The notes below the pieces were generated by a model. That model did not search any database, was not told where the DNA came from, and worked only from the letters and a program-made list of their open reading frames with translations. A DNA stretch of 64,000 nucleotides from Mesostigma viride (lineage: Eukaryota; Streptophyta; Mesostigmatophyceae; Mesostigmatales; Mesostigmataceae): assembly GCA_009746045.1 (NCBI GenBank), contig RPFO01000086.1:1228397-1292396 (forward strand), written 5' to 3'. The position numbers were made by a program, and so were the translations under genes. Numbering within the stretch: the stretch's first letter is position 1; each line of letters begins with the position of its first letter. This document shows positions 9,001 through 62,063 of the stretch, piece after piece.

Positions 9001-9688
9001 GAACCTAACAGTGCAAGTGATCCCCTGTCACGAGCCTAACAAGCAAACTTAAGAGTGAACCTAACAGTGCAAGTGATCCCCTGTCACGAGCCTAACAAGC
9101 AAACTTAAGAGTGAACCTAACAGTGCAAGTGATCCCCTGTCACGAGCCTAACAAGCAAACTTAAGAGTGAACCTAACAGTGCAAGTGATCCCCTGTCACG
9201 AGCCTAACAAGCAAACTTAAGAGTGAACCTAACAGTGCAAGTGATCCCCTGTCACGAGCCTAACAAGCAAACTTAAGAGTGAACCTAACAGTGCAAGTGA
9301 TCCCCTGTCACGAGCCTAACAAGCAAACTTAAGAGTGAACCTAACAGTGCAAGTGATCCCCTGTCACGAGCCTAACAAGCAAACTTAAGAGTGAACCTAA
9401 CAGTGCAAGTGATCCCCTGTCACGAGCCTAACAAGCAAACTTAAGAGTGAACCTAACAGTGCAAGTGATCCCCTGTCACGAGCCTAACAAGCAAACTTAA
9501 GAGTGAACCTAACAGTGCAAGTGATCCCCTGTCACGAGCCTAACAAGCAAACTTAAGAGTGAACCTAACAGTGCAAGTGATCCCCTGTCACGAGCCTAAC
9601 AAGCAAACTTAAGAGTGAACCTAACAGTGCAAGTGATCCCCTGTCACGAGCCTAACAAGCAAACTTAAGAGTGAACCTAACAGTGCAA
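1..9688. repeat. 56-bp satellite array, 173 identical copies
   Basis: The unit begins GTGATCCCCTGTCACGAGCC and is 56 bp long. It repeats head to tail with phase unchanged from base 1; the text recurs exactly every 840 bases (15 units) and I found no variant base in 173 units. Each unit holds a short inverted repeat (GTGA, 7-base loop, TCAC) and a CTTAAG palindrome. Because 56 is not a multiple of 3 and the unit has stops, nothing long is open in it. The left edge of the window is inside the array, so the true length is unknown. Such uniformity means very recent amplification, strong homogenisation, or assembly by consensus. Confidence 0.98.
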
Positions 9689-9790
9689 GTGATCCCCTGT
9701 CAAGAGCCTAGCAAGCAAACTTAAGTGAACCTAACAGTGAACCTAACAGTGAACCTAACAGTGAACCTAACAGTGAACCTAAGAGAGTCT
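9689..9790. repeat. Degenerate edge of the satellite with 12-bp sub-repeats
   Basis: The 174th unit has substitutions and a short deletion, and then collapses into about five copies of a 12-bp motif, GAACCTAACAGT, which is the last part of the satellite unit. This is the typical decayed edge of an array, where homogenisation no longer acts. After it the sequence to 10110 has no gene I can recognise; it should be intron 3 of TAF6. Confidence 0.85.
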
Positions 9791-10127: not shown

Positions 10128-12134
10128 CGGCGTCGTCCACGTAGAAGAGTCCGTTGGTGCCGACGACACGGCGGAAACGGAGTGGCTCTGGGTTAGAGAA
10201 GCCAAACAGCTCCTGGGGAATGGGGTGATGGGGGGCGGCGGGGGGGAGGGGAGGGGAGGGGGGAAAGTGTGTGGGGGGGGGATTAGGAAAGGCTAAGGGT
10301 ACTATTATAGCAGTGCCGAAGGGGCCTGATCTTAGCCAGGCAGGCAAGCAAGGGCAACAACAGCTTGTACTGTGCCACATGCCTCACAGACGCAAAGACA
10401 AGAACAAGACGATGGTCGTTCGGGGGATGGTTGCTGCAGGCCGCACAGAAATACCACCAGGTGCACCGTTGTGGCCAATGGCATCCCAGCTGTGGCAGCA
10501 GCACCCCAGCTTTTTGGTGGGAGGCGCTTGCTGGTTTGCTGCACCTTGCTAGATGTGTGCCATGAAATGGATGTTGGTTTCCATGGCACACAGCCCCTCT
10601 CACCTTCCAAAGTACAACAGCATGGTTGTGGGAAAACACAGCCTTTAAACAAAAGGTTTGTTCATATACCCAACTCCCATGGACACGTGGGAAAGCGTTC
10701 CTGTATCCATGCAAACAGGCAAGTGCAGCCAGCGGTCTGACTCTGGAAACGTCACATCCCGGAGCACATGCTGGATATTGTAATCGTAACACCCACCCAA
10801 TAGCTGCCCACATTATTTTACTATGAAGCCGCAAGGTGCGCTATTGTAATAGTCATAGTCATAGTCATAGTGCGTCTGCTAAATTAAATTTGTATCTACT
10901 GTATGTATCCTCCACCGCTAGGTATAGGAATGCTACAACAAGCAACACGTACAATGATCCACCACAACCAACGTACATGGTCAACATAGTACAGAAATAC
11001 ATCGGTGATATGATGATGCGCTTACCTCCACGCTCCGCGGGCAGGTCCAAATGCAAAACCACCCAGCGATCGTCCATTATATCATATTAGTCCATATGTA
11101 TCTACATTATATCATACATATTGTACATTATGAAACCATCATTTACCTCCACGTTGCGCAGGCGCATCGCATTGCTCACGTCCGACGTGGTCAGCATGGA
11201 CCGCTTGGAGTGGCGCATGAACTTGAGCGCCTCCTGCCAGGTGGCGCCAAGGACACATGCACAGGCCGAGGCACAGGCCAAGTGGGGGAAAATTTAGCTC
11301 ACGCGCCCACTGTCGTGAAGCATACATTGTTCCCCCGACGGAGGGACGAGTATTATCAAGGAGACAACCAGCGCAGGCCAGAAATCGAGTATTATATATA
11401 CATATATATTCATTGAGCATGATAAATTACGGAAATGAAACCGGCATGCAACCTAAGGCCGGCATGCAACATATATATGATGTGTTAAAAGCGGGCCGGT
11501 ATACGTTCATGAGGCATGTCCCCGCACTGTGATAGGCAAGAGGCAAGAATGCCTTGAAAGTTGGGCCGAGCAGGGCAGAGGCAAACATAGACACAGCGGG
11601 TGAGGGGCTAATTTCCTCAGGCAAAAGTGGGGAGATGTGTAACGTGAGTAGGTGGGTGCCAGGAAAAGCGGTCAGTGTTTACCCTGCAAGAAGCAGCGTC
11701 GTGCTAAGCTGGCACGAGAAGCTGCACTGCACGAGTTGAATGGCCGATGATAGCATGGAACGTACACGCAGAAAGCAGGTCTATACAGCTGATCGCGAGC
11801 CAACTGCGACATGGTATATGCATCCGGTTGCTGGGAATAGTGTACAAACGCCAACGGACATGTGATGGGAGTCAATGCAGCTAACGCCATGTAAACGTGT
11901 TCCTAGGAAAGAGGCATGCATGCTTGTAGACTCGAGCATGAATTCGCAAAGCTGCAGCTTTTGCAATGGCGTCATGCACTTGGATAGAGCAAAGTGGAGA
12001 GAAATCACCTGTATAATCTCCCGGACTCGATACTCCACGTCGGGAGCGAGGGCAGTGGCAACGTCATTGCTAATGTTACTAATACCGATAGTCTGTCCAA
12101 TTATCTGGATTGATTCCTTCGCAATAAGGCTCAT
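10111..12134 (-). CDS. TAF6, TFIID subunit, N-terminal exons only
   Basis: Three exons read on the minus strand: 12009-12134 (42 codons, starts ATG), 11147-11233 (29 codons) and 10111-10212 (34 codons), all phase 0 with GT-AG introns. The joined 105 residues follow TAF6 from its first residue: a start like MSLIAKESI, then IGISNISNDVA, APDVEYRVREI, then ALKFMRHSKR, RLRNVE and LFGF, PLRFRR, LFYVDDADLDFDD. Residues 1-71 are the histone fold that in known TAF6 pairs with TAF9 in TFIID (core promoter recognition) and SAGA-type complexes; the rest is the start of the linker to the C-terminal HEAT domain. That domain is not in the window. Coding stops at a good donor (GTGCGT) and the next exon should lie left of 10110, where only 320 bp of unrecognised sequence and the satellite are found. 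The gene is therefore either interrupted by the satellite or carries it in intron 3. It shares a 692-bp upstream region with the divergent gene at 12827. Confidence 0.88.
10213..11146 (-). other. TAF6 intron 2, no gene seen
   Basis: The intron has a G-rich stretch next to the acceptor side of exon 3 (10230-10280), a few short TCATAG repeats near 10855-10870, and an AT-rich part at 10830-11146. Short open frames on both strands have no recognisable domain. Confidence 0.6.
11347..11395 (-). mobile_element. 29-bp R1 repeat fragment with 10-bp target duplication
   Basis: Bases 11357-11385 are the terminal 29 bp of the dispersed R1 repeat in reverse orientation (contain GAGACAACCAGCGCAGGCC). They are flanked by perfect direct repeats CGAGTATTAT at 11347-11356 and 11386-11395. 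The simplest reading is an extremely truncated retrotransposed copy in TAF6 intron 1. Confidence 0.75.
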
Positions 12135-12826
12135 CCTTGTTGAATAAATAAATTCAATTCGAAGAAGGATGTTGATTACAACGAATATTACCGAGTATAG
12201 ACTGAAATATTTCTAGTTGCCAGGAGGCTCATCCCCAGTGATGTGCAACACGCCCATGATGCAGGGGCAAACCGACAAAAATATGAAAGCTTCATCGCAA
12301 TTTATCCACAAAGAAACGGAGATTACCAAAGCGGCCGTGCCATTTGTAGTAGAAACGTGCTAACTTCGTGCGGCGAATTGATGCAGTTCGTGGCTAAATC
12401 CTTGCGTCGGCCATATCCCAGCGGGATACAGCATTCTGCTGGTTTCAAGGGGCGATGCCAGTTGCGACTTGCGACTAATTGCGAAATACTTATGTACGGC
12501 AGAATTACTTAAACTACTCTATGTGCGTCGCGCGGCGCCTACAGTCTTGAGACGTCAGTATTATTCCAACACTAGGGAGTACATGCAACAGCACAATACA
12601 ACGTGTAAGATATTCCAAATTTAAAAACGTTCGTGGGTCTGGCTATGGTGGCAAATTTTACGTCGTCGGTTTCAGTTATGTTGCGATAGTATGCAAAATG
12701 GGATTCGAATGTTTGAGATTTGAACTCTTTCGTTGTCCGTTTTCCCCTTTTCGGCGCCTCGAGGCGCCATATCCGCACATAATTTATTCATACTCTTATT
12801 TACATAGGACTTGAGCATTTCCCACC
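12135..12826. promoter_or_regulatory. Shared upstream region of TAF6 and the long coiled-coil gene
   Basis: The 692 bp between the two divergent start codons must hold both promoters. The region is AT-richer than the flanking exons. I see no clear TATA box at a fixed distance or other named element; the plus-strand start at 12827 has a favourable context (CCCACCATGC). Confidence 0.5.
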
Positions 12827-34782: not shown

Positions 34783-37700
34783 TCAGCCGTCATTGAGGCG
34801 GGGGAAGAACTTTGGCAGCAGGTCGGCCACCTGCACGCGCAGCCTCTCGCCCAACGACCTCTCAGGGTCCTTTTCCCGGTATTCCGTCAGCAGCCGTATC
34901 CCATCCTCCACCGCCGCGCGCACGTCCTTGTACAGCGCCCGCAGCTCGGGCGAGTCCTTGCGATTCGAGGCGCCGGCGGGCAGGAGCGCCTGGGTGTCAA
35001 ACGGTTTCCCAAAATAGAAATACACGCGCTCTGGGTACGGGAGCGGGAGCGGGCTCGGGATGGGCAAGTGCCCGAATGGGCCAGGAAGGTACGTGATCGG
35101 TGACAGGGACTCCTCGGCCGGCAACTGAAGCCGGTCAAAGATGCCGCGCAGGAAGGGGCCCGCGGGCGACGCCAGCATTTCCACCGAGTCGAACGCGATC
35201 TTGTACGCATCGTCGCCGCCCAGCGCGGCAAAGGGGACGATGATAGTCTTAAGGCGTGCCGCCATGCGCACAAAGTCGACCGACTCGTCACCATCGGCGC
35301 CGTCAGGGTCCCTGCTCGAGCCACCACCGCGCCACATCAGCTGGTACTCCTCGCCTTTGCGCTTGGCGACCTCTCGGCCGCCGCCGGGGAAGAGTAGCAC
35401 ATGTTCGCCTCGGGAGAGCATTCTAGCGAGCCGGTGGGCGGCCACACGAGAGGAGATAAACCCATGGCAGGTAATTGACGACCATGCCGTGGACCAGACC
35501 CAAAGTGAGAAAGAGAAGGCACAACAGCAAGACCGCTACCATCAAGGACACAACAATGGGCACAACCAAGCGACACACAACAACGACCTTACAACCCCTG
35601 CGGGTCTGCCCCCTCCCTCTCTCCCTCCTCCACCCCCCCCACTCCATTGATGATCAAAACAAACAAACACACACACACACACCTAACAGTTACCAAACAA
35701 AGGAGCGCCCCCTGAACAGCCAAATCTTCTTAGGAATGGATCACCCTCAATCCATACAGCCTCACATTACTTGCCATCCACACCCCAAGAATTTCGCGTG
35801 CAACAGCACAGCACAGCACAGCACAGGGGAGCTGGATCGAGACATGCAACCTCCTGCCCCCTGCCCCCTGCCCCCTGCCCCCTGCCCCCTGCCCCCTGCC
35901 CCCTGCCCCCTGCCCCCTGCCCCCTGCCCCCTGCCCCCTGCCCCCTGCCCCCTGCCCCCTGCCCCCTGCCCCCTCCCCCCTCCCCCCTGACCCCTCCCCC
36001 CTGACCCCTGACCCCTGACCCCTGACCCCTGACCCCTGACCCCTGACCCCTGACCGCTATCACCGCAGTCCCTGACGGCCTGGCGGCCTTGTGAAAGACA
36101 GTGATCCCAGCCTACGTTCTACGAGGGAGACCCCTCTTAAAGGGCTACGGCGACCACCACCAGCAACACAGTGGCAATGCATCAAACATGACACACGAGC
36201 TGGAGGAAAGAATTCTATGTACTATGATGGAAAGATAGTATCCCACCCAGCAACACAAAACGCTCAAGGCATGCTGGAAGCTCGCCATCAGATAAACATG
36301 CACGAGAACAAGTCAACCCACAAAACCCCACTCACATAACTTATGACATACCTAAATAACCATCCACAACCACCTAAATACCATCACCTATAAATGACAT
36401 ACTTAAATGACCATCATCCACCACCTAAATACCACCAAACATAAATAACGTACCTAGCTAACCATCCATCAACGATGACACCGCCGGGCATAGTGATACC
36501 ATGCAGTCTACGTGATAGTTGATTAACATCGACACCGCCAGGCATACCGATATCAGATAAGTTATCTCGCATGTGCATGCCACTTCACATCACAGGATAC
36601 CCGTAAGAGCTCTGCTCTCACATACAAAAAACCTTCATACAAAACAACTGTACACACCTGTACGCCGCCGCCCAACCAAACCTATCTCACACAATAGGAA
36701 AATATCCTGAAGGTTCCTATCTCACACATGTACACAGCAGCAGCTGCTGCAGCAATATGAGCAGTGGGACACCCGACCGGAACGCGATGCTCTTGACAGC
36801 CGCGCCATGCACTTCACATGCGTACATCCGTGTGTCAGTAGTTATATATAGACGCCATCTTGCACATAGACGCCACTTCACATACCTGTATGCCGCGACG
36901 GGCGACGCGGGCACACATCCGTATCTTTCGAACAGATCGCCAAACGGCCCCGCGCTCCAGTGTGCCCCGTGCGCCAGGCCCCTGCACTTGAACCCCCTCA
37001 AGTGAAGCTCATGCACCAGCAACGGGGCGTCGTAGAGCCCGAACATGGTGTGATTCCCCACGAACAGAATCGGCACCCGTGAACCAGCATCCGTGCCGTC
37101 CCCTCCACCCTCCCCATCCTTGCACGGCCAACGCGGCGCCCGGCTGGGCAAGTTCTCAAGACCCAGCAGGCACGGTGACGTCAGCAGCTTCCAGGGCTCG
37201 AGCCACCGCCCTAGCTCATCCAGCGCTGCATCGGAGACAGTGTCGTTGCGCCGCTCGCTGCTGCTGCTGCTGCTGCCACCTGTCATCGCGCGCGGCTGCT
37301 GGCTAGCCTTCCGCGAGCTGCTTCTCTTCCGCGCATCCTCCCCACTTCCATGCGCTGAGTCCAAGGGGACGGAGGCCGTAGCTCTAGCCTCCCCAGTGCC
37401 AGCTGGCGGGGTGGATGTATTGCTGGATGGACTTGGCGGTGTGCTACCACTTGCCACCGGCATCACCGCTGCAGCTGCCAACGGCGCATCCCTTGCTGTG
37501 GCAGCCGCCGTGGTGACGTTTTCGGTAGCTAGCCGTGCACCCACCCGGTGGTGCGATGTGCCATCGCGGTTGGGTTGATGCCTCGACGCCATCGTGGGGG
37601 GGGCTGTGGCCGTTGGTAACTTGAGGGTGCTGGCTTCCGAGGCGAGGACATCAGCACCCTCACCCTTGCGGGATCGCCCTGCCGCAGCACCCGCCGGGCT

Positions 37701-39134
37701 GGCACTGCTAGCGTTCGCACTGGTAGAGTTAGCACCAGCACCACTAGCCTTTGTTCCAGCCGATTCTGACGCCGCCACCTGGACCATTGCTCCAGTGTCC
37801 TTAGCTAACCCATTCATGCTGGCACCATCCCCATGGACCCCAGGTGAGGCGCCACCCGCAGCAACTGATGACTCTCTTGTCTCCGTCGCAGCTTCGTGGG
37901 AGCCATCCTTGGAGTCGATGACATCCTCCTGCGAAGCATCCTCCTCAATGTCATCGGACGAGGAGGCGCCCAGGGGCATCTCTACGGTGACCGGGGTCGG
38001 TGGCGGGTGGCTTAACCCAGCGTCCAGCATAAGGCGGGCCAGGTCGATGCCGTCCTCGAGGAGCGCGCTGTGGCCGCTGTCGATCAAAATAGATCGCTGC
38101 GCGCAGGGGAGCAAGGATGCAAGGCGAGACGTCTCGGGGAGGGAGGGCAGGAAACGGTCGCGCGCAGATGCAAGCAGGAGCACCGGCTGGGTGACGGCGC
38201 TCAGGATTTCGTCTGATACAGCGTCCTCCTCCAGCATGGAGAGACGGTAGGACGCGGTGGCCGCGGGGAGGTAGTCCAGGGGGGCCAGTAGGTCCCTGTC
38301 GCGCGCGAGGACGCGGCGGCGCGAGATCATGAGGGGCATCAGCGTGTCCTGGGCGAGGCGGTAGAGGGGGAGCGGGAACGCGGACAGAAGGCTGGTGCGA
38401 GAGAGCGCGCCCAGGAGAGGGTTGTTCTCGCGAAGGTGCGTCGCGGGGTTAAGAACGACTAGCCGGTCGACCAGGCGCGGCACGGCGGCGGCGACCAGGA
38501 ACGCAAGCACCCCACCAAAGCTCTCTGCGACAAGCGTCACATGGCGACGGGTCCACGCGCCATGGGAGGGAAGGCTGTCGCCGTCCACGGTAGCCGCGCG
38601 TTCGAGGAGCGGTATTAGCTGCGATGACAGCTCCGCCCAGGTGGACCGGTCGCTCGCCGGAATGTACAGGCACGCTACCTCGTAGCCAGCGGCCTCGAGG
38701 GAATGCAGCTGGGGTCGGATGCCCTGCCCAGTCCCGTCCAGGGACGGGAGGTATATGGCTAACGGCCGCGTGTCCTTTTGTTCTTCGATGCCCTCCTCAA
38801 CCTGTGCCCGAAGCGGGAACAGCAGCGAGATGTCCGTGGACGACCGGGCGGTGAAGTCTGGTACCGGGCAAGCGGGTGCGTCCATGTTGGCGGCCTTGGC
38901 ACGACGCCGACCTCGGCCTCGGACCAGGCCGGTTGGCTTGTTTGCGAAAGAAGCGGCATTAGTAACAGGAATACGGGCGGGCTTGGGCAGGGGGCTAACT
39001 GGCGGGGCGACCGCCCGGAGCGGGTTGCTGCCCTCCCTAACTCTGGGGGAAACAAACGACCTACATTGTTTCCGTAATGCCAAAAGCGTGCTCGGGGCTG
39101 CCGGCTTTTGGCAGTACGAACACAAGCCTTCCAT
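34783..39134 (-). CDS. Phytyl ester synthase-like protein (hydrolase plus acyltransferase)
   Basis: Two exons on the minus strand, 36886-39134 and 34783-35422, join in phase 2 (donor GTATGT, acceptor CTAG after a pyrimidine tract) to give 962 aa. The family (Arabidopsis PES1/PES2) sits in plastids and esterifies phytol and other lipids with acyl groups, recycling chlorophyll and galactolipid breakdown products. Residues 1-90 are Arg/Ser/Ala-rich, like a plastid transit peptide. An alpha/beta hydrolase follows with PSLDGTGQG (130-138), nucleophile Ser205 in AESFGG, Asp326 (ASARDRF) and His355 (DSGHS). A 260-residue Ser/Ala/Thr-rich linker (380-640), much longer than usual, leads to a DAGAT/LPLAT-like acyltransferase: GNHTMFGLYD (His695), then across the intron HVLLFPGGGREVAKRKGEEY and FVRMAARL. 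The intron cuts inside this domain exactly where homologous sequence continues. All expected catalytic residues are present, so the gene looks functional. Divergent from the SDR gene, 447 bp away. Confidence 0.87.
35851..36054. repeat. Heptamer array (CCCCCTG then CCCTGAC) in the PES intron
   Basis: About 29 seven-base units. The left part is CCCCCTG, the right part GACCCCT. On the PES-sense strand they read as runs of GGGGCAG and GGGTCAG, that is, dozens of G-triplets at regular spacing. Confidence 0.95.
36055..36885 (-). other. 5' part of the PES intron
   Basis: No gene. It holds short imperfect repeats of CCACCTAAATACCAT/CATAAATGACATAC-type sequence (36330-36470) and GACACCGCC-GGCAT strings (36475-36550). 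Confidence 0.5.
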
Positions 39135-39581
39135 GAAAAAGAATATGCGTGTCTACTCCATACCACCTAGCGTCACCATGGCAGGCTGATGTACGCTTGC
39201 AGGGCTGCGCACTAGCTGCGCACGGGCGTCTTGAGACAATATTGCCTGCAGGTGCATCGTGACTATCGTCCGCGGTTCTGGCATGCGCAAGATACGCTCT
39301 TGGGCCCGCTTATTTGTCGGCCTCAATGCACGCCACGTAGGCTATCCTGCGGTACCCATGCGCACTTTCAACAACAAGCGTGGATTGGGCCTGACTGGCC
39401 ACAGCACCTGTGACGTGGCGCGCCTAGCGGTGCGCGTGTGGCATTGGTTTTCACGTTATTACCGACTTCGAGCCCTCTAGGTACAAAGCGTGCCACGCCT
39501 CATTCGTCACTTACGTGCCACGCCTTTTCTTAGTGCGTGGAAGATTCTACGTGCTGTATTGCTGCATTACAGCCTGCAAGC
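39135..39581. promoter_or_regulatory. Shared upstream region of PES and SDR
   Basis: 447 bp between divergent start codons; both promoters must lie here. No named element recognised. Confidence 0.5.
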
Positions 39582-42500: not shown

Positions 42501-45500
42501 TCACCCACAACCTCGCCCACAACCTCACCCACGACCTCACCCACAACCTCCCCAGCAACCTCACCCACAGTTTCACGTGCTCACCTTGAAATGTTCGCTG
42601 TTGGCCAAGTGGCCCCATTCCCATACACAAGCAGAGGCCTGGGCACCTCTGGCATAGTCCACTGTCTCATGCCCACTAACCATCGCCCACTTCCAGCCTC
42701 CCCATAGATAAATGTTTGCTCAGTTGCTGACATTGCCAAGCTGCCAATACCTTGCTGTCAATCCGTGTGCGTGGCTCAACTGTGCCGTGTGCTGGCAGGA
42801 TATCATGTCGAACAACAAGTACGAGCCATGGCCCGCGTATGGACAATCCAAGCTGGCCAACATCCTGTTCACGTACGAGCTGGCAAGGTGGGTGCGGGGT
42901 GTGAGCTGGCAAGGCGGGTGCCACTTATGCGAGGCTGATCTGGCCTGTGCAGCCAGCCAGTTCAACGTTGCACATGTGTTAGAGTGAAAATGTGTGTAAG
43001 CGCATGTGCAGCCTGCGAAAGCCGACAAGGCACGAGGTGGCACATGACAACATAGTTAACAAACCATTTGAATCTCCCCCAACATAATTATTGAACAAAT
43101 AGAACATTCGCCGAAATAATTTATTGAACATTCCCCTCCAGTGTTGGCTCATTACCCTTCTATGGGAGGCCATTTCCATCCAACCCCGGTTGCTGCCACC
43201 TCACGTCTGACAAGGGAGCATGCTGCTGGGCACTCGTGAGGTCTAATCGTCACCCGCATCCCTTACTGTGTTAGCGCCACCGCTTGCACCCACCTTCCTC
43301 TGCTCGCCCTTACCCGATTCCCTTCTCCTCTTCACATGTGACTATTTGATAAAAATCTATATTTAATACCCGATTCCCTTCTCCTCTTCACATGTGACTA
43401 TTTGATAAAAATCTATATTTAATACCCGATTCCCTTCCCCTCTTCACATGTGACTATTTGATAAAAATCTATATTTAATACCCGATTCCCTTCCCCTCTT
43501 CACATGTGACTATTTGATAAAAATCTATATTTAATACCCGATTCCCTTCTCCTCTTCACATGAGACTATTTGATAAAAATCTATATTTAATACCCGATTC
43601 CCTTCTCCTCTTCACATGTGACTATTTGATAAAAATCTATATTTAATACCCGATTCCCTTCCCCTCTTCACATGAGACTATTTGATAAAAATCTATATTT
43701 AATACCCGATTCCCTTCTCCTCTTCACATGTGACTATTTGATAAAAATCTATATTTAATACCCGATTCCCTTCTCCTCTTCACATGTGACTATTTGATAA
43801 AAATCTATATTTAATACCCGATTCCCTTCTCCTCTTCACATGTGACTATTTGATAAAAATCTATATTTAATACCCGATTCCCTTCCCCTCTTCACATGTG
43901 ACTATTTGATAAAAATCTATATTTAATACCCGATTCCCTTCCCCTCTTCACATGTGACTATTTGATAAAAATCTATATTTAATACCCGATTCCCTTCTCC
44001 TCTTCACATGAGACTATTTGATAAAAATCTATATTTAATACCCGATTCCCTTCTCCTCTTCACATGTGACTATTTGATAAAAATCTATATTTAATACCCG
44101 ATTCCCTTCCCCTCTTCACATGAGACTATTTGATAAAAATCTATATTTAATACCCGATTCCCTTCTCCTCTTCACATGTGACTATTTGATAAAAATCAAT
44201 ATTTAATACCCGATTCCCTTCCCCTCTTCACATGTGACTATTTGATAAAAATCTATATTTAATACCCGATTCCCTTCTCCTCTTCACATGAGACTATTTG
44301 ATAAAAATCTATATTTAATACCCGATTCCCTTCTCCTCTTCACATGTGACTATTTGATAAAAATCTATATTTAATACCCGATTCCCTTCCCCTCTTCACA
44401 TGTGACTATTTGATAAAAATCTATATTTAATACCCGATTCCCTTCTCCTCTTCACATGTGACTATTTGATAAAAATCTATATTTAATACCCGATTCCCTT
44501 CTCCTCTTCACATGTGACTATTTGATAAAAATCTATATTTAATACCCGATTCCCTTCCCCTCTTCGTGTGCAGGCGGCTGCCCACCAACACGCACGTGAC
44601 GGCCAACTGCTTGCATCCGGGCCTGGTGGCCACCGAGTTGGGTCGCTACCTGCTGCCAGCCAACGTGAGTTGCTAACCACGGTGGCTACCATGAGGGGTG
44701 AAGAGGGGAGGGAGGAACCAAAGGCACCGCGTCGGCTTGGTGGGACTGGCTAACCTCTGGCATTTTGCTAACACGACTCTACTATCCTAAGCTTGCATGA
44801 CATCCGGCCGGCGCTGTCCAAGGATGCTTTGTTGTCGCATTATCAATACTCGTGAAACTCCCTGCTGGTTGCTCTTGGCTTCCCAGCTCCCAGCCCTCCA
44901 CCCCCTTCCGTCATGGCACTTCTCTATCCTATTTTTTATCCTCCCTGTGCCTGACATATTCTGCCTCAACCTAAGCATTTCTGTTATTGGATCTCTGATT
45001 TTAGTAGAAAGTGTGTACATTCTGTGCGCCAAACTGGAATGGTCGCTTGCCATGTATAGAAGTCATGACACCACCCATCCTCTCATCGTTAACGTCATCA
45101 TTCCCCCCTTTGGCCCCTGTCCGCTACCTGTTGTGCCACTGCCCCACCCGGCCTCTCGCAGGTGAACATCTTCCAGCAGCTCATGTTCGGCGCGATGCGG
45201 ATGATGGCCAAGACGCCCGAGCAAGGGGCGGAGACCAGCATCTACCTCGCATCCTCGTGAGTGTGCGGGCACTAGCAGGCAATGACACCTGTCTGTTCCC
45301 GGCCAGTGCATGGCGTCATGTTGCACACAATATGTTTCGTTCACTTTCACGGTTGCTGGCTTCGTGAGCTGCGTATGGGTGATTTGCCTGCGATACCTCA
45401 CGAAGTTCTGGATTAGAGTCATCAGACTCGTAGCAGTTTGCTACTGGAAATGGGTGGCCGAACCTTACGCCCCAGAGTTGGGTTTAGGTGAAATGTGCTG

Positions 45501-51943: not shown

Positions 51944-53668
51944 ATGAAAAGCACTATTTCCACCGCTTCCCTTCCCCCCTCCGTTCCACCTCCACCTCCA
52001 TTCCCCGCCGCACCCACCCCCATCACCCATCGTCGTTCTCCCCTGGTGGGCCAGCAGGCATCCTTGGCCCTTGCCACTTTTAACACCCGCACATTGCTAG
52101 ATGACGACCATAGCTGCCGGATCGATCGAGGAGCTAGTCGCATTTTGCATTGAGCATCGTGTATCTATATTAGGCGTCCAGGAACACCGCCGCACGGTGC
52201 CACTTGGCCTGGTGAGCACTGCTCGCTTGGCGGGTGGCTGGCGGTTTTACTTCGCTGGCAGCGGTACGTCTGGCCAAGGTGGTGTTGGTCTTTTGTGTTC
52301 GCCGCTGGCAGTTGCTAGCCTCAGCACGCTTAAGTTTCTAACCCCACGCCTTATGGTAGCACATTTCACCTCTGTCGAGGGGCGGTCTAAACACCACCTC
52401 ACGGTGGGGGTGGGCTACGCACCCCACAGTGGTCTACCTGAGTCGGCCCGTGAGGAGTTCTTCGAATCCTTGCATGACCTTGAGAGGGTCACCCCGGCCC
52501 GCCACTTTTTGGTTATTATATGCTGCTCGACGCCAATGCCACGCTCCCCGTGGGCACTGCTGGCAGCCGCTTTGCGCCTGCTGACACTACTGCTCGACCG
52601 GCTCGGCGGCCGGCGGCAGCGCACCCCGGTGGAGCACACGGGGGACGGCACGGCGCCGGTCAGCCTTGACCGCTGGTTGGCCCACAATGTTTCCTTGACC
52701 GGTGGGGCTCGCGCCCCCCCCCGCCGCTTCACCCCGAGACGGCCGCCCGCCTGGGGGTCGCCGGACCCCCGCCGCCGCCAGCGCCCCCCTCCTCGGCCGC
52801 GGACTACCAAGTCCCCGCCTTGCAGGAGGGCTGCCTTGCCACTGACGACGTCGTCCCCCCCTTCACTTTGAAGGAACTGGACGGCGCCCTTGCTCGCCTG
52901 CGGTACGATGCGGCGGTCGGTGCCGACCACCTTTCTGCTGAGCTGCTGAAGACCCCTGATCTGGCGGTTCGGGATCTTCTGCCTGGCGTTCTGCAACCGT
53001 GTCCTGCTCTCTGACGAGCCTCCGCCTGCTGAGTGGCAGACGGCCATCCGCGTCATGCTGTACAAGAAGGGCTCTGCTGCTGACCCCAGTAACTACCGGG
53101 GTGTCTGCCTCCAGAGCGCCGCGCTGAAGGTCTTCATGCGCATGATGCTGCACAGGCTCCGCGCCGCGCTGGACCCACACCTGGGTGAGTCTCAGATGGG
53201 TTTCCGTCGTGGTCGTAACACTGTCATGGCTGTGTTTGTCGCGCGCCGGTTGATGGTGGAGGTGCGTCGACTTCCCCCTGACAGTTTGCCGTTGGTCTTC
53301 ATTTTTGTTGACTATATCAAGGCCTTTGACACGGTTCTCTGGGAGGCTCTTTGGGCCATCCTAGCTCTGGATCGGGTACCACCTGCGTTTATTGCTGCCA
53401 TTCGCCGTCTGTATGAGGGCTCACAGGATGCAGTAGTGCGGACTGCGGAGGGCACCACTCCACCATTCCCCCTTCACCACAGGGTGTGGCAAGGTTGTGT
53501 CCTGTCCCCATACCTGTTCATTATTGTCGTGGATCACGTCATGCGCCGGGCACGTGCGCGCTTTACTGCTCTTAAGGGGTTCGAGCCAGGCTTGGACATC
53601 CTTAACGTGAAAGAGCACGGCGGGGTTAGACCTGGTTACCGCCTTGCCGACCTGATTTATGCGGATGA
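51944..53668 (+). pseudogene. LINE ORF2, 5' part: endonuclease and reverse transcriptase up to YADD
   Basis: Endonuclease motifs are spread over three frames: ATFNTRTL (about 52070), VSILGVQEHRR (about 52165), VGVGYAPHSG (about 52410) and LLDANATL (about 52525), so there are at least two frameshifts. Then ELDGALARLRYDAAVGADHL (about 52875), another frame change near 52970, and an open reverse transcriptase: SNYRGVCL, QMGFRRGRNT, motif A FVDYIKAFD (catalytic Asp at about 53310), motif B QGCVLSPYLF and motif C YADD at about 53655-53668. The gene is then cut by a DNA transposon. The enzyme would nick target DNA and copy the element's RNA; this copy cannot. Confidence 0.85.
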
Positions 53669-53689
53669 TACACTAGAAAAGCATATGAC

Positions 53690-54020
53690 CGGGCGGTAAC
53701 ACGCCCGGTAACACGAACGAACCCGGTAACGGGGCCGGTAACATGCACGGACCCATGTTACCGGCCGGTAACAGGGTCCGTTCCGGTTACGGCCGCAGTT
53801 ACCGGAACGTGCCCGGTAACGTGAACGTGGCCACGTTCGGGTTACCGGGCAATAACCAGAACAAGCCCGGTAACAAGGCCTTGTTATCGGGCCGGTTCAG
53901 GTTACCGCCCGGTAACCGGAACGAGGCCACGTTCACGTTATTGCCCGGTAACAAGGCCTTGTTACCGGGCTGGTTCAGGTTACCGCCCGGTAAACGTTCA
54001 GGTTACCGGTCAGGTTATGG
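53690..54020. repeat. Left subterminal repeats of the CACTA element
   Basis: Many copies of CCCGGTAAC and its reverse GTTACCGGG, spaced 10-20 bases and in both orientations. Likely transposase-binding sites by analogy with En/Spm. Confidence 0.85.
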
Positions 54021-54732
54021 GGTCCGTTTACTGTACGATCCCGGTATTCGTCCCGTAGGTTACGACGTCGTATGCTTCTCGCGTACACTACCGGTACTAC
54101 AATCATGTCGTTATGTCGTTCTGAATTGCAGTCACCAGGATGTCACTTAGAGTTTCACTTAGCATTTCGGTCAACCTAACCCCTAACACCCATTTACCCG
54201 GGGGAAAAAAAAAATGAATGGGATTTGCAGCAAGGCTCATGCAAGACGAGATTCATTTTCATAAAACATTTCATTATTACATGCAGGATTACATGTCATG
54301 CACAAAAATCCAACGCCTTCACAGAAAGAAGCATATCAAGTCAACATCAAATTCGTGGCTTCTCTTCGTGGCTTGAAATACTGTTTCCATGCGGTGCTTA
54401 GGACAGATCCGGGGATGTCGGCACCGCACAGAAGCTCCATCCGGGAGCAAGTGCGCCGGGGGAAGATGTTGTACATCCAGAGCTCGATATGTACGGGAGG
54501 CCGTCGTGTTGGAAACCGAGGTGTCTCCACAGAATTCCGCGCGCAGGCAGCTTGTGCCTTTACGGGGGAAGACCTGCGACACAAAAACCGTGTCCGGACA
54601 AAGCAATACGGAGAAATGGCAACGGCAGATGGAGCCGGCAAAGGCCGCTTGTAAGGAAAGTGATTTTTAATGCACGAATCAATGTATAATGCATGCTACA
54701 TCGCCATCGCTTGGGCGGTGAAAAGACAAGGA

Positions 54733-54990
54733 CCAAGCACATGCACCCACCTAGCCTTCGTGCCTCCCTCCCTTGACGAGGACCAACCACATGCCCCCAC
54801 CTACCCTTCGTCCATCCCGCCCTTGACGAGGCACAACCATGTGCCCCCACCTACCCTTCGTGCATCCCTCCCTTGACAAGAAACAAGCACGTGCACCTAC
54901 CTAACCTTTGTGCATCCCTCCCTTGGCAAGGAACAAGCACACCCACCCACCTACTCCACATGCATCCCTCCCTTGACAAGGAACAAGCAC
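54733..54990. repeat. 50-bp minisatellite, about 5 copies
   Basis: Each unit has CCCACCTAC-CTTCGT-CATCCCTCCCTTGACAAGGA-type sequence with drift. Lies inside the CACTA element. Confidence 0.8.
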
Positions 54991-55134
54991 GATCACCCTG
55001 CTACCCACTAGCATGGTAGCAAGGCAGACCTTACAATTGCATGTGCAGTTTATCCGTAGAAACTGTTAGACAACCAGCAAACGAGCCAGCCGGTGAAGAG
55101 CAAGGCACGCATGCAAGGAATTTGTCGTTGCCTA

Positions 55135-55525
55135 TGTCTACCCTTGTGTTTGTCACTGCAGTTGATGGAAAAAGAGTGCTTAGAAAGCAAGAATGCTTTA
55201 ACGTTGGTAATAGCAGAGGTGGCGGCAGCAAAAACACTGCGGATGGTTTCCAGCACTAATGTGGATAGTGATAATGCATGCCACTTTACGGGACCATACA
55301 AACCACAACAAGGATAAATCGTGAGAGCAAAAACAGGGGAGTACAAAATGGCCGGCTTACCTAGCAACAACAAAAAAATTGCATGAAAAACGAGACAACT
55401 CACCTTTGTCGCAGCAGTGACCATATCAGACAGCTCACAAAAACTTGTTGATCCTTGAAACTTCCTGCTTGAAGGCAGCCACCAACGGTATGGAGTTTTC
55501 ACCCCAGTCCTTCTCAACAGCCAAG
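55135..55525 (-). pseudogene. Exon-like fragments, possibly captured host gene
   Basis: On the minus strand, 55525-55425 reads KDWGENSIPLVAAFKQEVSRI-type sequence up to a GTGAGC donor-like site, and 55252-55180 reads LETIRSVFAAATSAITN. The pattern P-L-x-x-x-x-x-Q-E-x-x-R-x-N followed by I-R resembles the C-terminal region of dynein heavy chains, but the join between the parts is out of phase. On the plus strand 55153-55240 is also open (LMEKECLESKNALTLVIAE). If real, this is gene capture by a CACTA element; the evidence is weak. Confidence 0.25.
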
Positions 55526-55564
55526 GGAAAGGGAAAGAGAGAGGAGGGGTGCGGGAGGAACAAG

Positions 55565-56435
55565 AGAGCGGGGGTGGGAAGGGGGAGAGAGAGGGAGAGA
55601 GAGGGGGAGAGAGGGAGCGAGGGGAGCGAGGGGCAGCGAGGGGGAGCGAGGGGGAGCCAGGGGGAGCGAGGGGGAGCGAGGGGGGCGAGGGGGGCGAGGG
55701 GGAGCGAGGGGAGCGAGGGGGGCGAAGGGGGCGAGGGTGGGCGAGGGGGCGAGGGGGGTGAGGGGGAGCGAGGGGGAGCGAGGGGGAGCGAGGGGGGCGA
55801 GGGTGGGCGAGGGTGGGCGAGGGTGGGCGAGGGTGGGCGAGGGTGGGCGAGGGTGGGCGAGGGTGGGCGAGGGTGGCGAGGGGGGCGACGGGGGCGAGGG
55901 TGGGCGAGGGTGGGCGAGGGTGGGCGAGGGTGGGCGAGGGTGGGCGAGGGTGGGCGAGGGGGGCGAGGGTGGGCGAGGGTGGGCGAGGGTGGGCGAGGGT
56001 GGGCGAGGGTGGGCGAGGGTGGGCGAGGGGGAGCGAGGGGGAGGGGAGCGAGGGGGAGCGAGGGGGAGCGAGGGGGAGCGAGGGGGAGCGAGGGGGAGCG
56101 AGGGGAGCGAGGGGGAGAGAGGGGGAGAGAGGGAGAGAGAGGAGAGAGAGAGAGGAGAGAGAGAGGGGAGAGAGAGGGAGAGAGAGGGGGCGAGGGGGAG
56201 CGAGGGGAGCGAGGGGCAGCGAGGGGGAGCGAGGGGGAGCGAGGGGAGCGAGGGGGAGCGAGGGGGAGCGAGGGGGAGCGAGGGGGAGCGAGGGGGAGCG
56301 AGGGGGAGCGAGGGTGGGCGAGGGTGGGCGAGGGTGGGCGAGGGTGGGCGAGGGTGGGCGAGGGGGAGCGAGGGGGAGCGAGGGGGAGAGAGGGGGAGAG
56401 AGAGGAGAGAGAGAGGGGAGAGAGATGGGGGAGAG
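55565..56435. repeat. G-rich 10-bp array (GAGGGTGGGC / GAGCGAGGGG)
   Basis: About 85 ten-base units in blocks of two variants, all purine-rich on the plus strand. Long open frames on both strands are by-products of the repeat. Confidence 0.93.
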
Positions 56436-56449
56436 AGGGCTACTAAAAT

Positions 56450-56840
56450 TCACCAAGCAAGCATGCAAGGAAGCAAGGCCGGACTAACCGAGGAAGCAAG
56501 GGACTAATTAAATTCAGCAAGCAAGCAAGAGTGGCTAACCAAGGAAGCAAGGGCCTAACCAAGGAAGCAAGGGACTAATTGAATTCAGCAAGCAAGCGTA
56601 CATGCGCGCAAGGAAGAGAGTGGCTAAAAAAGGAAGCAAGGGCCTAACAAAGGAATCAAGGGCCTAATGAAATTCAGCAAGCAAGCAATTGCAAGCATGC
56701 AAGGAAGAGGGGCTAACAAAGGAAGCAACGGCCTAACAAAGGAATCAGGGGACTGCTTCCATTCAGCAAGTGGCCAAGCATGCAGGGAAGGAACGGCCTA
56801 ACCAAGTAGGCAGGGTCATATCAAAGGAAGCAAAGCATTA
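56450..56840. repeat. Degenerate tandem repeat (AAGGAAGCAAGGG...), left part
   Basis: Units of about 40-50 bp with AGGAAGCAAGGGACTAATTA and TTCAGCAAGCAAGCA. The array continues at 58566-58870 on the other side of the nested TTAA element, which split it. Confidence 0.85.
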
Positions 56841-56841
56841 A

Positions 56842-58561
56842 CTCGTCGTCTGTCCCTGGTCCTCTACGGAGGACTGAGTTGAACTCAGTCCTCTCTAGAG
56901 GACCGAGTTTTTGGGTTTCGTAGAAAATTCGCCCCGGTCAGAATGTTTGACAAAAAAATTCTCTCAAAATTTATTCAAATACTACGTGAAAAGATCTTTC
57001 TTGGACATATTTTTGGGATTTTTTTGGATTTGGTATGAGCGGCTAAATGTACGGTCAAAGTACAGGTGGTAAGGGTACTTTTCCACGTGAAACGCGAGTT
57101 CCGGAAATGCACGACCTAGCCATGGCGGCTCGCGCCCATGCATGCAGTTTACGTTTGCGGACGAGTTAGCTGTCCAAACTCAGGAAATAGATTTAACATG
57201 CCCTAAAGATGATAAAAATCAATTTTTAGCTCGCGGGGATGCGATTTACCCGGTGTCGGCACTGTTCTTGCTGGAAAAAACTGCGATAAGGCAGGTCGAC
57301 GGAATTGATGACTGCGCTTGCTTTCCGGCGCAATTTCAATGGCTGATAGGTTTCTTTCTACATTTTAACATGCATTGTATTAGAATAAATTGAGTGACAG
57401 TATAGATTTGATGATTTCGACCATTCTGTCACGTCATGGTCTATGTGCCGCAAAGTGCCACTTTTGCGGGCACCGCCTGGGCCAAGGTAACGCCAGCCGT
57501 GCCAGGTAAAGCCGGATAATCGTTGCCTCTTCGTTTCTTGATGTTTGTACATGAGTTTAAGCTTGCGAGGCGTTGTCAGGTTCAAGTCTTGATGCTCTTT
57601 CTTGACCGTTGCCTGCCCTCTCTAAAACCCCCTTTTCAGATGATGTTATCAGGCATTTGCCTTGACCCAGTGTAGTTGTGCAGGGTTTTAGGAGCTGTGC
57701 AGGTTTAAACACCTTCATAGATGTTAGTTATTCTTTTGCTACGTTCATACTGCATGATTTTGAGGCCACGGGCCGCGTCAAGGGTGCATTCAAGCTTTTA
57801 CGGGTGAGTGAAAAGTCTTGGTGACAAACCACTGCCATCATGTGCCAGCAACTATGTTGGCCACATCATGGCAAGGCAAAACAGTTATAGCCATATCTAT
57901 TGTTGTTAGAAACAATGGAAATATGCTTAACCTACCCATTATATTGGTGGTTGACACTTATAACATAACCCTTTGTTGGTAGGGTATCCAAGCCCATTCC
58001 CTACATGCATGCATAGGCTCTCACTACATGATAAGGTATGATATACCTGAAGTATGATGATGCAAGTGTGTTGTCCTGTAATGCTTGAAGGGAAATGAGT
58101 TGATTGGGATGGTTGGTGGCCACGGTGGTGTGTAGTATGACCGCACTTACATGCTAGCAAAGTTAGCAAAAGCCCCATTCCTCTCCTGAGGACTGAGAGT
58201 TTTTTAATTGTTTCAGGCAGTTGCAGTGGCCAAATCGAGCCCAGTTTTTTTCCACGTTTCAAGAACTATATTGTTTACAAGCCTATATTTTTTCTTCATG
58301 CACGAGGATTTGATTGAATTTTTCCCACTCGTTCTTATCCCGAAAAATGCAAATTCGCGAGGGGTGCCCATCGTCCGTGTAATTTTCAGGTGTTCGGGTC
58401 AAGTTTTCACATATGCAGTATTTTTGCCAACAAAATGACATCTAGTACACCCCCGATCCACATCAAAACATTTGGGATGGACCCCCCACCTAGTCGCTAC
58501 ACGCGGTTGAAAATTGTCAACTCAGTCCTCCTGTGAGGACTGAGTTGGGACAGACGACGAG
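56842..58561. mobile_element. TTAA-flanked non-autonomous DNA transposon, copy B (1,720 bp)
   Basis: The inverted ends CTCGTCGTCTGTCCC (56842) and GGGACAGACGACGAG (to 58561) are flanked by TTAA at 56838-56841 and 58562-58565. Just inside, both ends hold AACTCAGTCCTC/GAGGACTGAGTT palindromes. The inner 57050-57950 resembles copy A (shared: GGTCAAAGTACA, CATGGCGGCT, CAAACTCAGGAAAT, TTCTTGCTGGAAAAAACTGC, CACCGCCTGGGCCAAGGTAA), though the termini differ. No transposase. Inserted in a tandem array within the CACTA element. Confidence 0.8.
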
Positions 58562-58565
58562 TTAA

Positions 58566-58870
58566 TTAAATTCAGCAAGCATGCAAGGAAGAGTGGCTGA
58601 CAAAGGAAGCATGGGAATAACCAAGGAAGCAAGGGACTGATTACATTCAGGAAGCACGCATGCAAGGAAGCAAGGGAATAAAGAAAGGAATTAATCAAAT
58701 TCAGCAAGCGGCTATACAACGAAGCAAGGGCCTAATCAAGGAAGAAAGCCACCACGCAAAGAAGCAGGCAAGCATGCAAAGACGGAAACAAGCATGCAAG
58801 GAAGCAAGGGCTTTATCGAACTCAGCAAGCAAGCAAGCATGCAAGGAAGCAAGGAGCAAGTGAGGGACCA
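58566..58870. repeat. Degenerate tandem repeat, right part
   Basis: Continuation of 56450-56840: TTCAGCAAGC, GCATGCAAGGAAGC, AAGGGACTAATCAA. Confidence 0.85.
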
Positions 58871-60426
58871 AGGGACTAATCAACTTTATGATACTTACCA
58901 CGCAGAAGGGACAAACTCATGACCGCGGAGAAGATAACGCTCCGTCCCTCCTGTTGCGATTGCAAAGGGGTGAAAGAATAGTAGTGATGTGAGGAATGAA
59001 TTCCAGTGCAAAATTAGGAAAATACCTTCAATAACAAAGCTAGTAAGTAGGTAAGGTAATTAAAAGTAGGTAGCAAACTGATGACAACACGCACATACTC
59101 ACGCATGGACCAACCAAGTTAGTATCTAATCAACTATGTGGCTAATGAGGAAGCACCATGAAACATTTGACCTTACTGGCTTCATCAGAACACGTCTAGA
59201 TGCTTTTCCTTTGCAAAGATAGTCGCAATTGACGCTTGGGGCCTGCATGGGATTCAGGTCTGCATGGACGTGCTTTGACAACAAATGGGCATTTACACAC
59301 GAAAATGCCGAAGGACGGTACTTCATGATGGTCATCTTCATGAAATTGACCACGCATGTAAGAGGAAAAGAAATCAAGAATTCAGAGTTCATGCTATACT
59401 AAGAAACCAGCTTTTGCTCAGAATGCCGCTTTTGCGGTCTATGGGCCTTCCAATGCAACCTGCCAAGCCATTCTCATAAGTATCCTTGCTCAGCTACGCC
59501 GTTGCTCATTTTCCCAGCTCCATTCCTCTTCGATCACAGCCTGTCCATGACGGCCTTGTAGGTTTTGGATAGCTCCAGAATCTCGCTCTGCTTATTCTTC
59601 GTTACTTATGTCACTCACATGTCGTCGCTACTAGAACCGCTTCTAGTGCGGTTCTCGCTGCCACCCCTGCTGCCATGCGGTCTGCACTGCAGCTCATCGC
59701 TCCATTTACCGCTCGCGTTCTCTTGAATTGCTACCCCTGCATACTGCCGGATTCGGGAGAGGCCTCCAGGATTGGCTCCTCGTCGGTGCTGTCGTGGAAA
59801 TACAACCGCGGCTGACGTCCTAGCTACCTAACAAGAGGCACTGTGTACGTAGTGGGAATCACCATCCTTTGCTCATTTGAGCAATTCTTGACAAACTGCC
59901 AGGCCGCATTGAAAAAACAACCAGAATAACATCGAATTTCTCCAGGCATACTCGGTTACGGACCTACATCTAAACTGTATGTGGAAACTCTCTGAACTTC
60001 GCTGAGAGTTTTCCGTGTTGGCAATCCTTCTTTTCCCGACCTTAACAGTCCACCATTCCTGCCAGACGAATTCTGCCATGTCAACCCTATCTTGTCCCGA
60101 GCCAGCACTGTCACAAGCGCTGGCGTACTGGCCAGCGGCGATAATGTTTCCGCCCGTCGCCATTCATGGCTTTCGTCAGTTCCGTGTCCGCCGACCGCCA
60201 TCCCCGCCCCATGGTCTTCTAACGTCTTTCTTTGGAGGTAACAACCCGTTCCCCAAATTTGAAATCCGCGCGGCGAAAGTTTTGTGCCAGGCGTTAGTAC
60301 GCGCAGTACATATCTGTGCTTCGAACCGTACATCAATGTGCCTCGTACTGAACGGTGCAACGTACGGCAAGCAAAACGGACTGGAAGGACACTGTCTAGT
60401 ATCCCGTACATAGGCAACGAACGCAA
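58871..60426. other. Interior of the CACTA element, no gene recognised
   Basis: Short open frames on both strands (for example 59956-60426 minus) show no domain and overlap each other. No transposase motif was found. Confidence 0.5.
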
Positions 60427-60515
60427 GATGTTAATTAATATGCTCCATGACTCCCTAACGAGAGCACGAGTGTAATTAATAACGAGTTCAATTAATAACG
60501 AGTTTAATTATGTAA
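60427..60515 (+). mobile_element. S-family fragment, copy 5
   Basis: CATGACTCCCTAACGAGAGC followed by ACGAG and TTAATTAA-type tail repeats matches the last 60 bases of the 19984 copy. Confidence 0.55.
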
Positions 60516-60556
60516 TATCAAAGAGAGTCAACCATGCAGCACCGACATGTCATTTA

Positions 60557-60725
60557 TCAAGGAGACAACCAGCGCAGGCCAGAAATCGGAAAATCCGGAC
60601 CATGGTAGCTCGAGCCTGCCGTTATCTTGTCCGCGTTGGCGAGTCCGGTTCATGATGACGAATATGAATGGAGATGGACATGTGTAGCCTTACATGCGTT
60701 GACATTATGGCTGGCTAACGTGCAT
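60557..60725 (-). repeat. R1 dispersed repeat, copy c (reversed)
   Basis: Begins with GAGACAACCAGCGCAGGCC and contains GACCATGGTAGCTCGAGCCT and TTATGGCTGGCTAACGTGC, the reverse of the 34027-34305 copy. Truncated at its 5' end. Confidence 0.75.
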
Positions 60726-60732
60726 AGAGTAA

Positions 60733-61190
60733 CATGAACATGCCCGGTAACCGGCAACGTACCATGAACGTGCCCGGTAACACGCCCAGTAACACGAACA
60801 TGCCCGGTAACCGGCCCGGTAACACGCACTAGCCCGGTAACATGAACATGCCCGGTAACAGGCATCGTAACATGAACGTACCCGGTAACACGCCCGGTAA
60901 CAAGAACATGCCCGGTAACCGGCCCGGTAACACGAACTGGCCCGGTAACATGAACATGCCCGGTAACAGGCATCGTAGCATGAACGTGCCCGGTAACACG
61001 CCCGGTAACACGAACGAACCCGGTAACCGGCCCGGTAACACGAACTGGCCCGGTAACATGAACGGACCCATGTTACCGCCCGGTAACATGAACGGACCCT
61101 TGTTACCGGACGGTAACAAGGGTCCGTTCATGTTACCGGGCATGTTACCGGGTTCGTTCGTGTTACCGGGCGTGTTACCGCCCGGTCATC
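60733..61190. repeat. Right subterminal repeats of the CACTA element
   Basis: Dozens of CCCGGTAAC, mostly in one orientation until about 61070, then inverted to GTTACCGGG toward the end. Mirrors 53690-54020. Confidence 0.88.
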
Positions 61191-61205
61191 TCCTTTTCTA
61201 GTGTA

Positions 61206-62063
61206 CCACCCTCATCGAGAGCCCCGAGCACATTCAGACCTGGCTGGACTGCCTGGCTGGGCCTGGAGGCGCGGGCGGTGGGGCTGGAGATTAGTGTCAA
61301 AACTGAGGCGATGGTGATAGGGGCATCCTGTAAACCACCGCTGCCGCGCCTGCTCGACGGGACGGAGGTCCCGTTCCGCGACCGCTTCAAGCTGTTGGGG
61401 AGCTGGCTTCCTGACACCGCCGACGATGTGGACACCCGCATCGGCCTTGCCTGGGCCAAGCTCCGTTCCCTCACACCCTACTGGCGCTCGAAGGGCCTGG
61501 ACGGGCACCGCAAGCGCATGCTCTTCAAGGTCCTCGTCCTCACGGTGCTCACGTATGGCGCCGAGGCGTGGACCCTCCCACCCAAACTGGCAGCTCGGCT
61601 CGACGGCACAGTTTACAGGATGCTCCGGCAGGTCCTTAATGTAGGTTTTTCCGAGCGTCCGTCATCAGAGTCTTTGTATCATGGCATGCCTCGTGTTTCG
61701 GACGAGATTAGGCAGCGTAGGATAGCATTTGTAGGCCACCTTGCCCGCACCAGCCAGGTCGACACCACCCTTGGTCTGGCCGGCCCCCAGCGGCTTGGAC
61801 AGCGGCCAGGGCGGCACATTCTGACCTGGCCTGGCCCCAAGGACATTCCCAAAAGGGTAGGGAAACCTGTCACCAACTACGTTCAGATGTTGCTGGACGA
61901 CCTAGTGGTCCCAGCCCAGTTAGAGCACCGCATCCACTCTCTCTCCCGTCTTTGGACTGCCATGCAGGACAAGACGCGGTGGAAGAAGATTGTCAAGGCG
62001 CACACGCCCGACCCTGTGGGCAAGCCACCTCCCCCCAAGCGGAGGAGGCGTTTTGATGAGTAG
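61206..62063 (+). pseudogene. LINE ORF2, 3' part
   Basis: The first codons (TTLIESPEHIQTWLDCL) continue the reverse transcriptase from YADD. A one-base frameshift lies near 61257, after which the frame runs to TAG at 62061-62063 through VGLEISVKTEAMV, FKLLGSWL, LTYGAEAWTLP, ETRQRRIAF-like IRQRRIAFVGHL and DKTRWKK, the conserved C-terminal region of L1/CR1-type ORF2 proteins. Confidence 0.85.

Follow-up and report, generated by a model that had tools for sequence, protein, structure and literature searches.

We analysed a 64,000-nucleotide stretch of the Mesostigma viride genome (GenBank assembly GCA_009746045.1, contig RPFO01000086.1, positions 1,228,397 to 1,292,396 of the forward strand; hereafter the window), in which an element with CACTA ends interrupts a retrotransposon. 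This element is very probably a recent insertion of a non-autonomous CACTA (EnSpm) DNA transposon family that is mobilised in trans. The observations behind this assignment are that the same ends are present at every complete copy, that the copies are flanked by 2-bp target duplications of arbitrary sequence, that near-identical copies occupy 12 distinct sites, and that the copy scanned for protein families has no recognised transposase. An initial annotation, made from the letters of the window alone, had proposed that a large, non-autonomous element of CACTA type, with a subterminal repeat code of its own, interrupts a reverse transcriptase at its YADD motif, and our analysis supports that proposal.

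Ends and subterminal repeats of the window element

The element starts with CACTAGAAAAG at position 53671 and ends with CTTTTCTAGTG at position 61203 (coordinates of all parts are collected in Table 1). The span first annotated, 53669–61205, is this single element together with its two flanking copies of TA, and both the CACTA ends and the TA on either side were thus read correctly. The inverted repeats are also present, at a length of about 60 bp (58 of 60 bases matching) and not the 30 bases originally given. The two mismatches within the first 60 bases fall at positions 12 and 14, and a repeat finder reported terminal inverted repeat (TIR) arms of 118 nt that are 90% alike.

Inside the TIRs, and overlapping them, lie the subterminal repeats. 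The left 350 bp of the element contain the motif GGTAAC/GTTACC 16 times and the right ∼490 bp contain it 25 times, with two further occurrences in the remainder. For each end, 1000 simulated sequences matched in dinucleotide composition had 1.3 motifs on average and never more than 6, so the dense subterminal GGTAAC repeats noted at the outset stand well above the ∼1.3 expected. Motifs in the right array are most commonly spaced 12, 18 or 30 bp apart, and a unit of ∼108 bp, repeated about three times, spans most of this array. Short repeats arrayed in direct and inverted orientation next to the termini, a feature of CACTA/EnSpm elements, are therefore present in the window element. An Rfam search of the window gave no match.

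Copies of the family and their target duplications

We searched the genome (440 Mb in 2243 contigs) for further copies. A query of 101 bases taken from the left end matched 108 pieces, and a 30-base terminus pattern, with up to three mismatches allowed, found 34 ends, whereas the reversed pattern used as a control found none. These ends are spread over 20 contigs, 14 of which have two ends and six have one. From the 20 loci retrieved, copies were counted as complete where both exact 20-base ends lay within 12 kb, which gave 13 complete copies including that of the window. The CACTA...TAGTG termini typical of CACTA/EnSpm elements are common to the 13, which were chosen by those ends, and a 2-bp duplication bounds each. 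Copies with differing boundaries were looked for, and all 13, selected as described, share the same boundaries with the duplication directly abutting them.

Ten of the 13 complete copies are 5516–5961 bp long and the remaining three are 7223, 7401 and 7533 bp. The 7.5 kb of the initial annotation is therefore not the usual size of the family, which is 5.5–6.0 kb; the window copy reaches this length because a TTAA-flanked element of 1.72 kb is nested inside it. The 7401-bp copy (L010) has a far longer GA-rich array.

Target duplications in the CACTA/EnSpm superfamily are 2–3 bp long, and the family falls within this range, with a duplication of 2 bp at 13/13 complete copies and one of 3, 4 or 5 bp at none. 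Flanks taken from different copies agreed over 2 bp in 14 of 156 ordered pairs. At two copies, L015 and L018, duplication lengths of 6 and 10 fit too, as the CCAT array in which they lie yields by itself. The duplicated dinucleotide is AT at four copies (of which two represent a single insertion), TA at two (the window copy and L009), and GA, CA, CT, AC, AA, AG and GG at one copy each. Because 11 of the 13 copies carry other dinucleotides, the TA of the window is one of many targets; a TA target preference is ruled out, and the idea that TA is the rule for this element did not hold beyond 2/13 copies.

The flanks, in 27 records with at most 280 bp each, were compared by unmasked blastn (E 1e-5). 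L015, L018 and a one-ended locus, L027, have the same CCAT-repeat flank and, for this reason, were taken as one insertion; no 280-bp flank match was found between copies outside this trio. As L015 and L018 count as one, the 13 copies represent 12 distinct complete insertions.

The copies are very similar to each other. Over the left 1850 bp the 13 differ by 0–1.3%, so the spread of the family is recent, and the window copy is identical (0.0%) to L010 and L011 across this part. Over the right part (∼2.1 kb without the array) the difference is 0–2.8%. Two older sites were also found: one at C2:5694684 comprises a TIR with a single additional short piece, and the other (L026, C1424:174000–183130) has, at ∼5500–8830, two left-type ends in inverted orientation that are 86 and 90% identical to the family, with flanks around the two ends that, judged by eye, are inverted repeats of each other. 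Outside the 13 complete copies, besides these remnants on C1424 and C2, are the one-ended loci on C887 and C1664, which run into assembly gaps, and C1215, where the right end is rearranged, together with C667, which matches positions 1–1371 only, and C777, described below.

Coding content, alternative explanations and known relatives

One copy (L014, 5604 bp) was scanned against Pfam in six frames over 4535 bp (1831 + 2704 bp, with the middle ∼1.07 kb, largely GA-rich array, outside the scan), and no transposase family was found there. The sole match over its cut-off was to Bactofilin (28.4 bits, cut-off 27.9), in the translated GGTAAC array, and a match to DUF6434 (17.9 bits) was below cut-off; we rejected both as real genes, the one being a translated repeat that only just passes and the other a sub-threshold score. 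Six overlapping frames of 95–129 amino acids at element positions ∼600–1180 are open in all 12 other copies, while in the right half, outside the GA-rich middle, no frame of at least 90 amino acids stays open throughout these 12. One of the six, of 95 residues, has 23 synonymous and five non-synonymous codon differences, which come from just four variable columns, and these frames are evidence neither for nor against a gene. Elsewhere in the genome, Transposase_21 (PF02992) has at least 150 matches (150 of 239 candidates were scored), those listed all lying above the curated cut-off and many having identical scores. Six transposase frames of this genome, used as tblastn queries against the 20 loci and the window, gave no credible match (best E 0.29), which agrees with a non-autonomous family. 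Relatives of one CACTA transposase were sought in viral contigs and none was found.

Several results weigh against a non-autonomous CACTA family moved in trans. The 3-bp duplication of plant CACTA elements is seen at 0/13 copies, a departure from those elements. The Bactofilin and DUF6434 matches are no transposases. No Transposase_21 gene could be linked to the family ends, the tblastn queries covering part of the transposase groups. The search for the ends yielded no autonomous copy either, all 34 ends detected with the 30-base pattern being at family copies or old remnants. Lastly, a small product may be made from the frames at ∼600–1180.

These points leave some room, though not much, for the family to belong to another group of the CACTA-Mirage-Chapaev-Transib clade, or to an undescribed superfamily with CACTA-like ends, and to be moved by a transposase other than Transposase_21; we regard this as unlikely. 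The 2-bp rather than 3-bp duplication and the lack of a partner transposase linked to the ends speak for it, and the clade at large is described as having mostly 5'-CA..TG-3' ends and duplications of 2–5 bp (passages in PMC12730594), but the complete CACTA/TAGTG pentamers, the long subterminal arrays, which are like those described for plant CACTA elements (PMC2613891), and the plentiful Transposase_21 matches in the genome all point back to CACTA itself.

Far less probable is a TA-targeting element (Tc1/mariner, a TA-type Harbinger relative or an EnSpm-like ESTA element) whose ends read CACTA by chance. TA does flank the window copy and L009, and ESTA elements, EnSpm-like and with TA duplications, are reported from rust fungi (in the part of PMC12730594 that treats them), but Tc1/mariner and ESTA would have TA at every site, and the other dinucleotides at 11/13 copies refute a TA-only rule. 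That the shared ends come from segmental duplication, the copying of larger stretches without any transposon, can be dismissed in spite of the flank common to L015, L018 and L027, since the flanks outside that trio are unmatched, similarity ends at the 2-bp duplications, and 12 distinct flank pairs exist among the 13 copies.

For the preferred reading, a non-autonomous CACTA family, we propose that a CACTA-type transposase made elsewhere in the genome would recognise the ends, and that this transposase or a helper protein would bind the GGTAAC subterminal arrays. The element would then be excised and inserted elsewhere through a 2-base staggered cut, where fill-in would give the 2-bp duplication. 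On this reading, the window copy came to lie in a retrotransposon, within its reverse transcriptase frame, and was itself later struck by an element that appears to duplicate TTAA. In maize Spm/En, as described in PMC2613891, TNPA recognises the subterminal repeats, the putative transposase is TNPD, and deletion derivatives may be supplied with both in trans; by analogy, the GGTAAC arrays may be the natural counterpart of the Spm/En subterminal repeats. A more specific and rather doubtful idea is that the family is part of a host CACTA lineage with a 2-base staggered cut and no fixed target, in which the ∼60-bp TIR and the GGTAAC code are recognised. The driver might be a diverged Transposase_21 protein whose own element shares the ends in part, or a transposase beyond current models; it would have to be diverged or unrecognised because the retrieved copies are nearly identical and yet have no recognised transposase.

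Among known systems, the family resembles the non-autonomous derivatives of CACTA/EnSpm elements such as Spm/En and soybean Tgm, which are described (PMC2613891, PMC8978399) with CACTA/TAGTG ends, without a recognised transposase, and with subterminal repeats, both direct and inverted, that extend over several hundred bp and are unequal at the two ends; Spm/En deletion derivatives are reported there to be moved in trans. It differs from them in its 2-bp rather than 3-bp duplication, its GGTAAC motif, its internal GA minisatellite and its TIR, which is ∼60 bp compared with 13 bp in Tgmt*. Duplications of 3 bp are stated for plant CACTA elements in passages of PMC4158355 and PMC8978399, and for those grapevine CACTA families whose duplication length is given (PMC2528002, in part). 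The contrast drawn initially between 2 bp here and 3 bp in plants is therefore true of plant elements, but the shorter duplication has precedents among CACTA elements: CAC..GTG ends with a 2-bp duplication are known for the tunicate element ENS1_Cis and for two viral elements, CMC-NA_1 and CMC-NA_2 (as described in PMC6004678). The likeness to these lies in the ends and the length of the duplication, and the viral two, unlike the present family, are miniature elements. ESTA, as portrayed in PMC12730594, shares a place in a CACTA-related clade and a 2-bp duplication, but its duplications are TA whereas any dinucleotide is found here. Giant EnSpm elements described from Ectocarpus and from red algae (passages in PMC12477816) are likewise large and algal; set against them, the present family measures 5.5–6.0 kb without nested insertions and has no recognised coding content.

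The literature surveyed (titles, abstract openings and some passages) contained no description of this family, and we do not claim its absence from print. On the best reading it is a new family of the known CACTA (EnSpm) kind. CACTA duplications of 2 bp have been published already (PMC6004678, in the passages concerned). The 12 distinct, recently active and sharp-ended insertions suffice to show that in a CACTA-type family the target duplication can be 2 bp long without its sequence being fixed. They also form a set that can be used in seeking the proteins that move the family, namely the transposase and the one that binds the subterminal repeats; the general view of transposition is unchanged by it.

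Insertion site, nested insertions and other features of the window

When the flanks of the window copy are joined minus one TA, they read ...LADLIYADDTTLIESPEHIQTW..., and YADD is in frame, which agrees with the excision product first proposed. The joined product is LIYADDTTLIESPEHIQTW, followed by a stop 29 residues past YADD. Similarity downstream appears to run on in another frame, and frames upstream shift too, so this retrotransposon copy is degenerate even apart from the insertion. An endonuclease match upstream (17.9 bits) is under its cut-off of 24.5. Another copy of the family, L021, also lies in a retrotransposon, in an RNase H frame (RT_RNaseH, 82.4 bits). This was the sole match among ten flank pieces from five copies compared with Pfam; of the other eight complete copies, the window copy is the one whose flanks were also compared.

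Table 1. Coordinates of the window element, its parts, its nested insertion and its target (window positions).
Feature	Position	Strand	Description
Whole CACTA-type non-autonomous element	53671..61203	+	7533 bp including nested insertion; bounded by CACTA...TAGTG and a 2-bp duplication; ends shared with 12 further complete copies
Target duplication TA, left copy	53669..53670		Read from sequence
Target duplication TA, right copy	61204..61205		Read from sequence
Left terminal inverted repeat	53671..53730	+	58/60 bases identical to right one
Right terminal inverted repeat	61144..61203	-	Pairs with left one at 58/60 bases
Left subterminal array	53695..54007		16 GGTAAC/GTTACC motifs, both orientations
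Right subterminal array	60746..61179		25 motifs spaced 10–30 bp; 19 in one orientation, 6 reversed
Internal GA-rich minisatellite	55563..56439		10/20/30-bp units; length differs from copy to copy
Nested 1720-bp insertion	56842..58561		15-bp inverted ends CTCGTCGTCTGTCCC/GGGACAGACGACGAG; TTAA flanks; missing from other 12 complete copies
Target reverse transcriptase open frame, non-LTR (long terminal repeat) retrotransposon	52950..53670	+	RVT_1, PF00078, 73.8 bits; cut right after ...LIYADD
Downstream continuation of same retrotransposon	61206..62063	+	Largely in a different frame, without Pfam match; continuity inferred

The nested insertion is a second transposon inside the first, as its 1720 bases, with ends of their own, are missing from the 12 other copies. 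The empty site GCATTAATTAAA is found in 12/12 other complete copies, all of which are without the nested-insertion ends. TTAA stands on both sides of the insertion and once at the empty site, and a TTAA duplication is a piggyBac-type feature; a 2-bp TA reading fits these flanks equally well. A separate nested insertion of ∼0.75 kb is present in L021 at element positions ∼5476–6225, with inverted ends of the CTAGGGTTGGGTCCACG type and TAACAA on both sides.

Two inward-facing ends on C777 (L023/L024, C777:4476131–4515975), with CA on both sides, delimit 39.8 kb, and we rejected this stretch as a simple giant element. Family pieces extend up to positions 690 and 694 on either side of an interruption of ∼34 kb, which is bounded by TGTTACG...CGTAACA and, like an LTR retrotransposon, has a duplication, AGAAG. 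Judged from the sequence outside its middle 22.5 kb, the stretch resembles an ordinary copy holding an LTR-type insertion of ∼34 kb or a nest of insertions; L023 has an assembly gap.

The remainder of the window has features that lie apart from the element. A 56-bp satellite of ∼174 copies, 99% alike, is followed by a short 12-bp array (together at 1–9739), and a second 56-bp tandem array with a different unit, in ∼22 copies, is at 43311–44565. An 811-residue frame on the reverse strand (36720–39152) has an alpha/beta hydrolase Pfam match, with no match in a PDB search. The adjoining frame (34786–35535, reverse strand), which has no Pfam match, contains what we take to be an acyltransferase-like motif, and the two are perhaps a phytyl-ester-synthase-like gene, which would fit a photosynthetic host. 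Also on the reverse strand, a histone-fold match to TAF (PF02969, 50.1 bits) is at 11784–12212.

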